DNA from: Paraburkholderia sp. IMGN_8
GTDB lineage: Bacteria > Pseudomonadota > Gammaproteobacteria > Burkholderiales > Burkholderiaceae
DNA length: 64,000 bases
Direction of reading: 5' to 3'
Assembly (NCBI RefSeq): GCF_038050405.1
Contig: NZ_CP150900.1
Coordinates: 558,001 to 622,000 of the forward strand
Shown: positions 34,252 through 51,585 of the stretch, piece by piece
Layout: each line of letters starts with the position of its first letter
Numbering within the stretch: position 1 is the stretch's first letter
Position numbers and translations under genes: made by a program
The notes under the pieces: generated by a model
Seen by the model: only the letters and a program-made list of their open reading frames with translations
What the model was told of the DNA's origin: nothing
Database searches by the model: none

Positions 34252-34408
34252 AATATGCGGCGCTGCCCTTTTGGCGCGCCTTGAAACAAAACAGACAGTA
34301 AAATTCAGCGTCCGCACGACTGCCTGGTACCGGCAGCGTCACAGGCTGCGAGACACACTGTGCCAGCTTCGTCGGCACCGAGAATCAACAACACAAAGGA
34401 GGAGCTTC

Positions 34409-35770
34409 ATGGAAGCTGTCCACGGCAGCATGCTGCTGGTTTACGGGGTGATCGCCATCGCAGCGCTGATCTTGCTGATCACGCGCTTCAAGGTTTATCC
34501 GTTTCTCGTCCTGATCATCGTCTCGCTACTGCTTGGGCTCGCGGCCGGCATGCCGATGAGCACGATCGTCAAATCGTTCGAAACCGGCAATGGCAATACG
34601 CTCGGTCACATCGCGGTGGTGGTCGGTCTCGGCACGATGCTCGGCAAGATGATGGCCGAATCGGGCGGCGCGGAGCGCGTCGCGACCACGCTGATCGACT
34701 GGTTCGGTGAGAAGAACATTCACTGGGCGATGATGTTCGTCGCGATCATCGTCGGTTTGCCGGTGTTCTTCGAAGTCGGCTTCGTGCTGCTGATTCCGAT
34801 TGCCTTCAACGTCGCCAAGCGCACCGGCAAGTCGCTGCTGCTGATCGGCCTGCCGATGGTCGCAGGACTGTCTGTCGTGCACGGGCTGATTCCGCCGCAC
34901 CCGGCCGCGATGCTCGCGGTGCAGGCGTATCACGCCGATATCGGCAAGACGATTGCGTATGGACTGCTGGTCGGCGTGCCGACCGCGATCGTCGCCGGTC
35001 CGCTGTTCGCGCTGCTGATTCATCGCCAGATCAAGCTGCCGGCGAACAATCCGCTCGCCGCGCAATTCACCGAGTCTCACGCGGAAGGGGTGAAGCGTGA
35101 GCTCCCCGGGTTCGGCATTACGCTGTTCACGATCCTGCTGCCGGTCATCCTGATGCTGGTCGGCAGTTGGGCCGATCTGGTGTTCACGCCGAAAACCCTG
35201 CCGAACGATCTGCTGCATTTTGTCGGCAACTCGGACGTGGCGCTGCTGATTGCGGTGCTGGTCAGCTTCTGGACCTTCGGGGCGAAGCGCGGCTTCAATC
35301 GTGAGCAGATCCAGAAGTTCTGCGGCGAGTGTCTTGCGCCGATCGCGGGCATCACGCTGATCGTCGGCGCGGGCGGCGGCTTCGGACGTGTGCTGATGGA
35401 TAGCGGCATCTCGAAGGAAATCGTCGGTGCGGCGACCTCGGCGCATCTGTCGCCGCTGCTGCTTGGTTGGATCGTCGCGGCGATGATCCGTCTTGCGACC
35501 GGCTCGGCCACGGTGGCGATGACGACCGCGTGCGGCATCGTCGCGCCGATCGCCTCGGCCAGCGGCGTGCAGGTCACGCCGGAATTGCTGGTGCTCGCCA
35601 CGGGTTCCGGTTCGCTGATCTTCTCGCACGTCAACGACGGCGGCTTCTGGCTGATCAAGGAATATTTCGGCATGACGGTGGGGCAGACGTTCAAGACGTG
35701 GTCGCTCTGCGAAACCATCATTTCCGTGTTGGGTTTGGCTTTAACCTTCGCACTCGCGACGGTCGTGTAA
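34409..35770 (+). CDS. GntP-family gluconate:H+ symporter
   Basis: This 453-residue membrane carrier has about 12 hydrophobic segments. GntP family markers include GLGTMLGKMMAESGGAERVATTLI, LPVFFEVGFVLLIPIAF and LATGSGSLIFSHVNDGGFWLIKEYF. The ATG at 34409 has AAAGGAGGAG upstream. It brings gluconate (or a related aldonate) in with protons. It is followed by gntK after ten bases and preceded by edd-eda, which makes gluconate the most likely substrate. Confidence 0.93.
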   Translation: MEAVHGSMLLVYGVIAIAALILLITRFKVYPFLVLIIVSLLLGLAAGMPMSTIVKSFETGNGNTLGHIAVVVGLGTMLGKMMAESGGAERVATTLIDWFGEKNIHWAMMFVAIIVGLPVFFEVGFVLLIPIAFNVAKRTGKSLLLIGLPMVAGLSVVHGLIPPHPAAMLAVQAYHADIGKTIAYGLLVGVPTAIVAGPLFALLIHRQIKLPANNPLAAQFTESHAEGVKRELPGFGITLFTILLPVILMLVGSWADLVFTPKTLPNDLLHFVGNSDVALLIAVLVSFWTFGAKRGFNREQIQKFCGECLAPIAGITLIVGAGGGFGRVLMDSGISKEIVGAATSAHLSPLLLGWIVAAMIRLATGSATVAMTTACGIVAPIASASGVQVTPELLVLATGSGSLIFSHVNDGGFWLIKEYFGMTVGQTFKTWSLCETIISVLGLALTFALATVV

Positions 35771-47020: not shown

Positions 47021-47434
<414 letters not shown>

Positions 47435-47444
47435 CACCCAATGA

Positions 47445-47526: not shown

Positions 47527-47949
47527 TTAGCTCGCGACGATATCGAACGAGTGCGACAGTTCGGCGGTTTTTGCGATCATGATCGACGCCGAGCAGTATT
47601 TGTCGTGCGACAGATTGATCGCCCGTTCCACGGTAGCCGGATTCAGATTCTTGCCGGTCACGGTGAAGTGGAAGTGGATCTTGGTGAACACCTTCGGATC
47701 TTCGCTCGCGCGTTCCGCCTTCAGCGTTACCGAGCAGCCGGCAATTTCCTGACGGCTCTTCTTCAGGATCATCACGACGTCGTACGCCGTGCAGCCGCCC
47801 GTGCCGAGCAGAACCATTTCCATCGGACGCGGCGCAAGATTGCGGCCGCCGCCTTCCGGCGCGCCGTCCATCGTGACCAAATGGCCGCTGCCCGTCTCGG
47901 CGGCGAACGCCATCCCGTCTTGCCCCATCCAGCTAACTTTGCATTCCAT
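47527..47949 (-). CDS. OsmC-family protein (YhfA-like)
   Basis: This 140-residue protein begins MECKVSWMGQDGMAFAAETGSG. It contains GRNLAPRPMEMVLLGTGGCTAYDVVMILKKSRQE with the conserved redox Cys, and a second Cys in LSHDKYCSASIMIAK. The fold is that of OsmC/Ohr peroxide-reactive proteins, YhfA branch. Its physiological substrate is not established. The frame extends upstream to 48072 but conserved sequence begins at 47949. Confidence 0.88.
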   Translation of the reverse strand: MECKVSWMGQDGMAFAAETGSGHLVTMDGAPEGGGRNLAPRPMEMVLLGTGGCTAYDVVMILKKSRQEIAGCSVTLKAERASEDPKVFTKIHFHFTVTGKNLNPATVERAINLSHDKYCSASIMIAKTAELSHSFDIVAS

Positions 47950-48231
47950 GCTGTGCTCCACCGCGCTTCGCTTATTCGAGACGGCATTGTAGCCCGGCGT
48001 TTGCGTGTCCGCCCGGAGGGACTTCGGCGGGAAATTATGCACAATGACGGCTTGCGTGTTGCGGTGCGGCATGTTCAGCCGGTTCGGGAATGCCCTGAAG
48101 GGTTTAGGGGTTTTACTCTAGTCGATGTCTGCCGTCGAGGCCGCTCTTGGAAGGTTTAGTGTTTGATTTAAAAGAGAATTTCCAGCGTGGTGGCCAGCTT
48201 TTGTGTTTCCCATATAATGAAATCACATTTC

Positions 48232-48255
48232 GCAATGCAAATGTTCTTGCATCGC
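48232..48255. promoter_or_regulatory. near-perfect palindrome over the -35 of a small-RNA promoter
   Basis: ATGCAA and TTGCAT are perfect arms around six bases, extended on each side by a mismatch and a GC pair. The right arm is itself the -35 hexamer of the promoter at 48247. A protein binding here would block or recruit polymerase. The preceding bases (47950-48231) hold the OsmC leader and another TATAAT at 48213-48218 without a good -35; nothing else is supportable there. Confidence 0.55.
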
Positions 48256-48275
48256 ACAAGGGTGCCTCATATAAT
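48247..48275 (+). promoter_or_regulatory. sigma-70 type promoter of the candidate small RNA
   Basis: TTGCAT, a 17-base spacer and TATAAT form a near-consensus promoter. It predicts a start at about 48282. No coding gene starts until 48633, while a terminator lies 60-90 bases downstream. Confidence 0.72.
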
Positions 48276-48281
48276 CGATCC

Positions 48282-48372
48282 CATCGGTTGCCAGTAGTCC
48301 TGCAACCTCCGCTGTCTCCTCCACCTCCTCCTTTGGTGGATTAAACCCGAACCGCTCGTTCGGGTTTTTTTT
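48282..48372 (+). ncRNA. candidate small RNA with anti-Shine-Dalgarno loop
   Basis: Promoter and terminator bound an RNA of about 90 nt. It can fold into three hairpins. The first is GGTTGC/GCAACC (48286-48307). The second is TCCACC/GGTGGA (48320-48340) with the nine-base loop TCCTCCTTT. The third is the terminator. CCTCC-type motifs recur at 48306-48310, 48318-48322 and 48324-48331, all complementary to ribosome-binding sites (GGAGG). RNAs with exposed CCUCC loops are known from alphaproteobacteria as translation-regulating sRNAs. This one's existence and role are inference. A 65-codon frame crossing it has a proline run from the same repeat and starts upstream of the promoter. Confidence 0.6.
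48344..48372 (+). terminator. terminator of the candidate small RNA
   Basis: AACCCGAAC and GTTCGGGTT are perfect nine-base arms around CGCTC, followed by an eight-T run. Confidence 0.88.
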
Positions 48373-48483
48373 CGTCTTCGCTTTTGCCTTCAAGGCACGG
48401 TTTCACGACCCGGCACGAAGGCCGGATGACTACTGTCCTGGCCACCTGCGCAACACGCCTGCCAGTCCAAGCAGCCGCAGATT

Positions 48484-48513
48484 TTGACTTGACGTCACAA
48501 ATTCCTTTATAAT
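48484..48513 (+). promoter_or_regulatory. promoter of rplM-rpsI
   Basis: TTGACT and a perfect TATAAT are separated by 18 bases, about 120 bases before the rplM start. It is a strong match for a ribosomal-protein promoter, with a long leader. Confidence 0.78.
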
Positions 48514-48632: not shown

Positions 48633-49061
48633 ATGAAGACGTTTTCCGCAAAAGCCCATGAGGTGACGCGCGAATGGTACGTGATTGACGCGACGGATAA
48701 GGTTCTCGGGCGTGTCGCCAGCGAAGTGGCACACCGTCTTCGCGGCAAGCACAAGCCTGAATTCACTCCCCACGTCGACACCGGTGATTTCATCATCGTT
48801 ATCAACGCAGGCAAGCTGAAAGTCACGGGCAACAAGGCTACTGACAAGAAGTACTATCGCCACTCGGGTTACCCGGGCGGTATCTATGAAACGACGTTCG
48901 GCAAAATGCAAGAACGCTTCCCGGGCCGTGCGCTCGAGAAAGCGGTCAAGGGCATGCTGCCGAAGGGCCCGCTCGGCTACGCGATGATCAAGAAGCTGAA
49001 GGTCTACGCCGAAGCAACGCATCCGCATTCGGCGCAACAGCCGAAAGCGCTCGAGATCTAA
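48633..49061 (+). CDS. rplM: 50S ribosomal protein L13
   Basis: This 142-residue protein begins [47 protein letters not shown] in family style and contains [18 protein letters not shown] and [12 protein letters not shown]13 is an early-assembly protein of the large subunit. rpsI follows after 11 bases, the near-universal L13-S9 operon. The roughly 120-base leader upstream may carry autoregulation but I see no defined element. Confidence 0.98.
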
Positions 49062-49072
49062 GGGGAGCCCAC

Positions 49073-49465
49073 ATGATCGGTAACTGGAATTACGGCACGG
49101 GCCGCCGCAAGAGCGCCGTCGCACGTGTGTTCATCAAGGCAGGCAAGGGCGATATCGTTGTGAACGGCAAGCCTATCGCCGATTACTTCTCGCGCGAAAC
49201 GTCGCTGATGATCGTGCGTCAGCCGCTGGAACTCACGAACCACGGCGTTACGTTCGACATCAAAGTCAACGTAACGGGTGGCGGTGAAACGGGTCAAGCC
49301 GGTGCGGTTCGCCACGGCATCACCCGCGCGCTGATGGACTATGATGCAACGCTGAAGCCGACGCTGTCGAACGCCGGCTTCGTGACGCGTGATGCTCGTG
49401 AAGTCGAACGTAAGAAGGTCGGCTTCCACAAGGCACGCCGCAGGAAGCAATTCTCGAAGCGTTAA
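49073..49465 (+). CDS. rpsI: 30S ribosomal protein S9
   Basis: This 130-residue protein begins [20 protein letters not shown] and ends [11 protein letters not shown]; the basic tail reaches the decoding centre. It has [19 protein letters not shown] in the middle. AGGGGAGC precedes the ATG. It is the second gene of the rplM-rpsI operon and is followed by a terminator. Confidence 0.98.
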
Positions 49466-50238: not shown

Positions 50239-51585
50239 ATGTTAACCTGCATCGCCATGCTGGCCGATGACCTCATCTGTCTTGTCGAATCGCAGCCGCC
50301 TGTCGATCTGAACCGGCTGGGCGAGCATCTGCCTTACGACTGGATCGAGAACACGGTTCAAGCCACGGGCGTGGCCAGCATCCGTCGGCGACGTTTGCCC
50401 GCGCAGCAGGTCGTGTGGCTGGTCATCGCGCTGGCGCTGTACCGTCATCAATCGATCAGCGAGGTCGTGGACGAGCTTGATCTCGCCTTACCTGCACGCG
50501 ATGCGTCATTTGTCAGTAAAAGCGCGGTGACGCAGGCGCGGCAGCGCACCGGCGCCGCGCCGCTGGCGTGGCTGCTTCGCGAGTCGGCCAGCAACTGGGC
50601 CGCCCAGGATCAGGCGCAATATCAGTTCAAAGGCTTCTCGCTGTACGCCATGGACGGCACGACGTTGCGCACGGCCGACAGTGCGGCCAATCGAGATCAT
50701 TCCGGTGCGCCGGCGTGCGTACACGGGCGGGTGGGAAGTTATCCCCAGTTGCGCGCCGTGACGCTCACCGCCATTCCCACGCACCTGGTGCGCGACGTCG
50801 AGTTCGGCCCGTACGACATCAACGAGATGCCATCGGCTGGCAAGCTCATCCCACGTGTACCTGAGAACTCCATCACAGTGTTCGACAGAGGATTCCTGTC
50901 GGCGCAGATCCTGTGCAACCTGGTTGCAGGCGGCCAGAACCGGCATTTCATCATTCCCGCCAAATCCAATACGTGCTGGGACGTGGTGACAGGTCAACCC
51001 GGCGACCAGATGGTACGGATGCGCGTGTCGCCTCAGGCCCGCAGGAAATGCCCCGGGTTACCCGAGTTCTGGCAGGCGCGTGCGGTTCTGAGCGTCGATG
51101 CACGCGGGCGTCAACGCACCCTGCTGACCTCGCTGACCGACCGAAGACGCTTCAAACCGGCAGATATCGTTGCGTGCTACGAGCGTCGCTGGCAGATCGA
51201 GACCAGCTATCACGAGTTGAAGCAGTCCATGCTGGGCATGGAGCTGACCCTTCGCAGCCAGACCGTCGAAGGGGTCTACCAGGAAGTGTGGGGCACCCTG
51301 ATCGCCTACAACCTGATCCGACTGGAAATAGCAAAAGCCGCACTGGAAGCCCGGTGTGCGCCAGAAGCGTTGAGCTTCATCCGTGCATTCCACACCATCC
51401 AGTACGAAATGACATGGGCCGCCGCAACACGCTCGTACGGCAAGCTGCCCGCCTTGCTCACGCGTCTGCGCGAACGCCTCAAGCAACTTCCCAACGAAAA
51501 ACGGCCCGGGCGCTGTTGCGCTCGGGCCGTTAAATCCAGACCTTTCCGTTACACCGTTCGATACCTCAAAAGAGACCTTAACTGA
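50239..51585 (+). CDS. IS4-family transposase
   Basis: This 448-residue DDE transposase has Asp139 (YAMDGTTLRT), Asp216 (TVFDRGF) and Glu321. The last sits in the IS4 YREK signature: Tyr314, Arg317, Glu321 and Lys328 at the exact Y-2-R-3-E-6-K spacing. SPQARRKCPGLP and LLTSLTDRRRF also match IS4-type proteins. It should cut and paste the element. It ends nine bases before the right end, with its stop next to the terminal repeat. No frameshift or internal stop is present. Confidence 0.95.
   Translation: MLTCIAMLADDLICLVESQPPVDLNRLGEHLPYDWIENTVQATGVASIRRRRLPAQQVVWLVIALALYRHQSISEVVDELDLALPARDASFVSKSAVTQARQRTGAAPLAWLLRESASNWAAQDQAQYQFKGFSLYAMDGTTLRTADSAANRDHSGAPACVHGRVGSYPQLRAVTLTAIPTHLVRDVEFGPYDINEMPSAGKLIPRVPENSITVFDRGFLSAQILCNLVAGGQNRHFIIPAKSNTCWDVVTGQPGDQMVRMRVSPQARRKCPGLPEFWQARAVLSVDARGRQRTLLTSLTDRRRFKPADIVACYERRWQIETSYHELKQSMLGMELTLRSQTVEGVYQEVWGTLIAYNLIRLEIAKAALEARCAPEALSFIRAFHTIQYEMTWAAATRSYGKLPALLTRLRERLKQLPNEKRPGRCCARAVKSRPFRYTVRYLKRDLN

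Follow-up and report, generated by a model that had tools for sequence, protein, structure and literature searches.

NcS27 (BdhR1) of Burkholderia cenocepacia is a 92-nt RNA encoded on the complement strand between BCAL3348a and the divergent BCAL3349 (PMC4603805). According to the accessible text of PMC5688073, ncS27 is one of four homologues, of which the other three are very short, and processing can bring it to a form of that kind; 55–80% of the interactions predicted for these double-hairpin RNAs fall at gene starts, planktonic growth is attenuated when NcS27 is overexpressed and raised by an antisense construct. A review, in its accessible part, states that NcS27 alters growth on some substrates and not on others, and ncS03 and ncS27 are counted among the "core detrimental fitness genes" (PMC12013268). 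The Rfam family RF02278 (Betaproteobacteria toxic sRNA) takes its name from growth inhibition in E. coli (PMC5688073).

S17 of Bordetella pertussis resembles the RNA described here in its 27-nt conserved seed region, its RNase E-trimmed short form and its targets, which include transporters and paa genes; complementary sites lie in 70 of the 92 derepressed genes, and the effect extends to nearly all of the paa genes. It differs in lying beside coq7, in being raised by BvgA~P, in its ~190-nt precursor and in leaving exponential growth of E. coli unimpaired (all from the accessible text of PMC11722255). Hsnc059/063/086/107 of Herbaspirillum seropedicae are likewise RF02278 RNAs in four copies, for which the accessible part of PMC7011215 reports no function. 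NmsR of Neisseria (RF02877) also has two CU-rich stretches that face the ribosome sites of metabolic genes (PMC5688073), but the NmsRs are in tandem, whereas the four copies in the genome studied here are dispersed, and our RNA missed the RF02877 cut-off (25.3 bits against a gathering score of 52). Anti-hemB (RF02837) is alike in its CU-rich hairpin and terminator and unlike in score, our RNA again missing the cut-off (27.9 bits against a gathering score of 49.5).

Identity and architecture of the RNA gene

The window analyzed here is a 64,000-nucleotide stretch of the Paraburkholderia sp. IMGN_8 genome, and its relevant features are collected in Table 1. Comparison with Rfam, named as a check in the original prediction, found RF02278 above its cut-off of 50, covering 48313-48373 at 71.7 bits (E 1.6e-12). 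The RNA has the layout of the family, namely two hairpins of which the second is an intrinsic terminator, with the CU-rich seeds unpaired, and it shares the family's distribution, with copies dispersed over several sites of a genome and restricted to a single order-level group. Four copies exceed the cut-off in the Paraburkholderia sp. IMGN_8 genome. A fifth RF02278-like copy, L005 (G000:C2:1644524-1644591), is sub-threshold at 38.6 bits and differs in its second pyrimidine stretch, and is either a diverged or a decaying paralogue. At least one copy was found in each of the 77 genomes searched in the genus; among 120 genomes of the order, 80 had a match at E ≤ 1e-3 and 49 had one over the cut-off. 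Phylum-wide, matches occurred in 11 of 150 genomes, and the three over the cut-off were all of the same order as the window. We take the searched order to be the betaproteobacterial one because Burkholderiaceae loci were identified among the OsmC matches.

The parallel first drawn with alphaproteobacterial sRNAs gives way to beta-proteobacterial RNAs, which supply the best Rfam matches, and where no named member had been known at this locus, the RNA falls in the Rfam family RF02278 and very probably already has a name, NcS27. The RNA is already known, being present in Rfam and in the Burkholderia literature; as a known growth-slowing regulator, the lead is therefore no new element. We consider it highly probable that the window RNA is the orthologue of NcS27/BdhR1, on the basis of length, orientation and processing. 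Of 15 Burkholderia-clade loci, 14 have a predicted transcript of 92 nt, and the fifteenth, like the copy in the window, has one of 91 nt; the orientation in the window fits the flanking layout given for J2315 ncS27 in the accessible text of PMC4603805. The two are alike in their double hairpin, unpaired CU-rich seeds and divergent upstream-side gene, and would share a processed 92-nt primary form (PMC5688073, PMC4603805); in addition, the gluconate permease BCAL3365 is a predicted double-hairpin target (PMC5688073), and a GntP gene lies ~13 kb from the sRNA in the window. They differ in species and in the core, which reads CCACCUCC in the window and CCACCCUCC in 13 of the 15 Burkholderia-clade loci.

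The -35 element TTGCAT (48247-48252), a 17-nt spacer and the -10 box TATAAT (48270-48275) precede a predicted transcript that we placed from the 7th nt past the -10 box to the T run (T8 at 48365-48372). Of the promoter originally described as near-consensus, the TATAAT is perfect, but TTGCAT has only three of the six bases of TTGACA, and the pair was absent from the promoter scan. The promoter region is kept in relatives, with TTGC.TCGCACAA well conserved across 114 loci. The T8 terminator enclosing ~91 transcribed bases was borne out, the terminator scan giving 48343-48367, and folding returned the expected six-pair stem UCCACC/GGUGGA exposing the UCCUCCUUU loop, together with a 5' hairpin and the terminator. 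The 92-nt fold has an energy of -32.2 kcal/mol (z -5.39), equalled by 0 of 200 shuffles, and CCUCC occurs four times within the 92 nt, a count reached by 3 of 5000 mononucleotide shuffles.

Exact matches to TTGCRTCGCACMA number six in the 9.1-Mb genome, three of them at RF02278 copies. The idea that the shared promoter motif is a regulator site, perhaps one for PhaR, was considered and rejected; a transporter-like ORF contains one of the three other matches. The conserved TTTCCCATATAATGAAATCACATTTCGCAATGCAAA block, which precedes the promoter of the sRNA, has two TTTC starts 22 bp apart and could be an operator.

Table 1. Features of the window, with the evidence on which each assignment is based
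Feature	Position	Strand	Basis
CAAAGGAGGAG ribosome site, predicted target, of the GntP gluconate permease gene (34409-35770; PF02447)	34394..34404	+	loop duplex rank
OsmC-like gene, divergent neighbour	47527..47949	-	Pfam PF02566
Conserved element TTTCCCATATAATGAAATCACATTTCGCAATGCAAA, possible regulator site	48207..48242	+	column conservation, 114 loci
-35 region, motif TTGCATCGCACAA common to two paralogous copies	48247..48259	+	exact TTGCRTCGCACMA matches
-10 box TATAAT	48270..48275	+	sequence; conserved
Predicted primary transcript, ~91 nt	48282..48372	+	fold z -5.39
5' leader hairpin GGUUGC..GCAACC, dispensable	48286..48307	+	covarying pairs; absent in 12/79 loci
RF02278 double-hairpin core, predicted mature RNA	48313..48373	+	71.7 bits, E 1.6e-12
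Seed 1, UGUCUCCUCC, 5' part single-stranded, complementary to GGAGGAGACA	48313..48322	+	column invariance, fold
Hairpin 1, stem UCCACC/GGUGGA, loop UCCUCCUUU = seed 2 (48326-48334)	48320..48340	+	fold, alignment
Intrinsic terminator with T8	48343..48372	+	terminator scan; covarying pairs
rplM (ribosomal protein L13), downstream neighbour	48633..49061	+	Pfam PF00572
rpsI (ribosomal protein S9)	49073..49465	+	Pfam PF00380

Core conservation and leader variation

Loci at rplM were those of the 30 best matches, some of them shared, in each of three sets with 74, 59 and 60 matching genomes; further loci came from the 80 best OsmC matches. The core was present at 144 of 166 loci, some of which come from the same genomes and one of which, L080, is counted on an Rfam match below the cut-off. 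By best-match set, these were 29 of 30 in the genus, 25 of 27 in the further family, 11 of 29 in the further order and 79 of 80 for OsmC. Rfam found copies upstream of rplM in L084 and L102 that the first search pattern had missed and the second caught, and an RF02278 match upstream of rplM in L080 that both patterns missed; for L130, just 231 nt of sequence were available for the core search.

In 80 distinct cores, alignment columns 2-11 were invariant, an invariance that is built in over GTCTCCTCC, which the search pattern for these cores required. The anti-Shine-Dalgarno loop of the original prediction was correct but incomplete, as it is one of two seeds, and the 5' UGUCUCCUCC is the less variable. 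In L084, from a 1.7-Mb genome of the same family, UGUCUCCUCC is kept and the loop region reads CCCAAACAUC, its pyrimidines gone, which suggests that the 5' seed could serve alone. Stem 1 was paired in 99.2% of cells with no covariation, and gives no covariation support because it hardly varies. Seven of the 10 terminator pairs change on both sides, as do four of the seven pairs of the leader hairpin (61 sequences).

Of 79 loci, 12 are leader-less, and in each of these the -10 box and the core are exactly 6 nt apart; in the other 67 the distance is 31-47 nt. On a tree built from OsmC and the DNA beyond it, the leader state changed four times. Well-supported branches force at least three of these changes, and this OsmC-region tree rejects the grouping of all leader-less loci in one clade. 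The tree alone leaves the direction unfixed, and we read the changes as losses because all Burkholderia and Trinickia rows have the leader. Two paralogues in the same genome show the identical 6-nt layout. In the leader-less loci, the missing part spans from about the start site to about the S17 cut (GU^GU) and the reported NcS27 processing point, and the primary transcript should therefore begin at the seed. We take these loci as natural evidence, at the level of sequence, that the ~60-nt form would be the working RNA. The repeated absence of the leader with a constant 6-nt spacing points to an RNA end held by selection.

GGAGACA ribosome sites and candidate targets

We think it very likely that the window encodes an RF02278 member, very probably the NcS27 orthologue, as a ~91-nt RNA whose leader is removed and whose two seeds block the Shine-Dalgarno sites of selected uptake and catabolic mRNAs. 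Of this reading, the present data show family membership, fold, conservation, leader-less relatives and the target signature. Transcription would start at the RNA's own promoter, and removal of the 5' leader hairpin from the ~91-nt RNA would leave a ~60-nt double hairpin, a cleavage that we infer, processing having been reported for NcS27 and for S17 (RNase E) in the accessible texts of PMC5688073 and PMC11722255. Seed 1 (UGUCUCCUCC) and the seed 2 loop (UCCUCCUUU, with CCUCCUUU) would pair, probably aided by Hfq, with the Shine-Dalgarno sites of a selected group of uptake and catabolic mRNAs, from CoA-ester, aromatic, sugar and gluconate pathways, and we infer that translation of these mRNAs in Paraburkholderia sp. 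IMGN_8 would be lowered when nutrients fail. The predicted conserved sRNA gene with a loop complementary to Shine-Dalgarno sites is upheld, and a growth effect has been published for its probable orthologue (PMC5688073).

The target sample comprised 1.664 Mb of genome in 81 stretches with 1133 called genes, from a crude gene caller that chose starts by ribosome-site strength. GGAGACA, complementary to the UGUCUCC of the RNA 5' end, was the commonest of the 64 GGAGNNN ribosome sites (32 of 408). This compares with 14.1 expected from independent positions (p 2e-5) and is 4.7 times the genomic background, although under a first-order Markov expectation the contrast is only 32 against 23.3. The Pfam scan left out two of the 32 GGAGACA genes (one of the near-duplicate pair at L295, and L297) and two of the 32 drawn controls. 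Genes for CoA-ester and storage-polymer breakdown, a category defined post hoc, made up 11 of 30 GGAGACA genes versus 0 of 30 controls (p 3e-4), or 10 of 30 versus 0 of 30 without the PHB depolymerase (p 8e-4). Catabolism plus uptake, assigned from Pfam names after the list had been seen, accounted for 26 of 30 versus 16 of 30 (p 0.01). This lean to catabolic genes agrees with the Bordetella S17 data. As a separate observation, L295 (G000:C2:2900001-2920000) carries two NMT1-type binding-protein genes ~10 kb apart, both among the 32, with the same 30-nt leader, equal length and nearly the same but non-identical sequences, a local duplication.

A family test used enoyl-CoA hydratases and acyl-CoA dehydrogenases, both picked from the same GGAGACA list, with loci obtained for 30 of 31 and 27 of 27 matches. 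GGAGACA preceded 10 of these 57 genes; outside the sampled stretches, the figure was 5 of 40 versus 32 of 1133 (p 0.007; p 0.035 among GGAG genes). We also scored the GGAGACA-to-ATG pattern relative to composition-matched heptamers in 120 order genomes. Genomes that have strong RF02278 copies gave a higher ratio (median 0.95, pooled 1.29, n=49) than genomes without any match (0.65 and 0.67, n=40), at a p of 0.001 that is too good because the genomes are related; the ratio was not raised in genomes with weak matches only (median 0.51, pooled 0.56, n=31). Within the 49 strong-copy genomes, a higher family score goes with a higher ratio (rho 0.49). A search of an open-access paper collection found no paper joining GGAGACA with Shine-Dalgarno.

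The RNA might instead inhibit translation in general: as a copy of the anti-Shine-Dalgarno tail of 16S RNA, it would mask GGAGG wherever this occurs and have no selected regulon. The family name, given for growth inhibition in E. coli, and the four CCUCC motifs favor this, as does the loop CCUCCUUU, which we take to resemble the 16S tail. We nevertheless regard it as unlikely, given that seed 1 reaches past the Shine-Dalgarno core by UGU and the same extension is over-represented at the 32 of 408 sites; the CoA-ester and storage-polymer contrast and the out-of-sample enrichment also argue against it, and so does the substrate dependence of the NcS27 growth effect in the accessible literature.

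For the favored reading, a blocker of selected mRNAs, the gluconate permease gene of the window is a candidate target. Its CAAAGGAGGAG is the exact 11-nt complement of RNA positions 48325-48335, and the gene ranks first of 1133 for the loop duplex. Of 20 genomes, 14 had a gntP orthologue no more than 20 kb away, with the exact 11-mer in four of the 14 and GGAGGAG in 10, which is weak evidence because an ordinary strong ribosome site explains this conservation equally. Duplex medians were -12.7 versus -7.0, a comparison that is partly circular because complementarity was the criterion for choosing the first set.

The position beside rplM

In 21 of 60 order genomes, representing 18 of 50 families, a same-strand copy precedes rplM by 84-265 bp. 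Of these 60 genomes, 40 have any RF02278 copy, and 19 have copies only elsewhere. In our reading, the site beside rplM is the old position of the RF02278 family; a search of an open-access paper collection yielded no paper placing an RF02278 copy there. The wider neighbourhood holds the RNase P RNA gene rnpB (RF00010, 289.3 bits) at 47023-47436 (+), beyond OsmC, and likewise in the relatives' loci L070, L080 (partly), L084 and L130. An IS4-type transposase gene (50239-51585, +; PF13006, PF01609) lies between an erpA-like Fe-S biosynthesis gene and anmK.

This recurring same-strand placement would suit a cis element of the rplM-rpsI operon, an attenuator or leader tying translation capacity to growth. 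Such an element is very improbable, as the RNA has its own promoter and a conserved terminator, a separate promoter-like TTGACT-18-TATAAT stands before rplM (48484-48513), homologous copies occur elsewhere in the same genome, and the 20 nt that immediately precede the rplM start contain no GGAG. Nor is the suggested link to rplM/rpsI and translation capacity supported, given this lack of GGAG and the fact that most of the targets, whether published or computed, belong to catabolism and transport; the link between the sRNA and rplM is positional only. A short protein-coding gene or a chance pyrimidine run is barely credible. The one listed ORF of at least 60 aa across the RNA stretch (48147-48344, 65 aa, TTG start) speaks for a coding gene, but its frame would be broken in relatives by leader and loop indels, terminator and leader pairs change together, and the Rfam E value is 1.6e-12.

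What is informative about the regulatory RNA is the combination of a recurring place beside a ribosomal gene with a matching "address" on its likely targets. We tentatively propose, as an idea somewhat more apt to fail than to hold, a Shine-Dalgarno "dialect" of the bacteria that have this RNA family, in which GGAGACA, recognized by the conserved 5' end of the RNA, marks genes for uptake and for CoA-ester and aromatic catabolism as one translationally repressible regulon, so that an old rplM-side sRNA would have shaped the spelling of ribosome sites genome-wide. This gives a testable rule, that genes with GGAGACA ribosome sites should be targets of the RNA, and the rule would make a partly defined regulon predictable from sequence alone.
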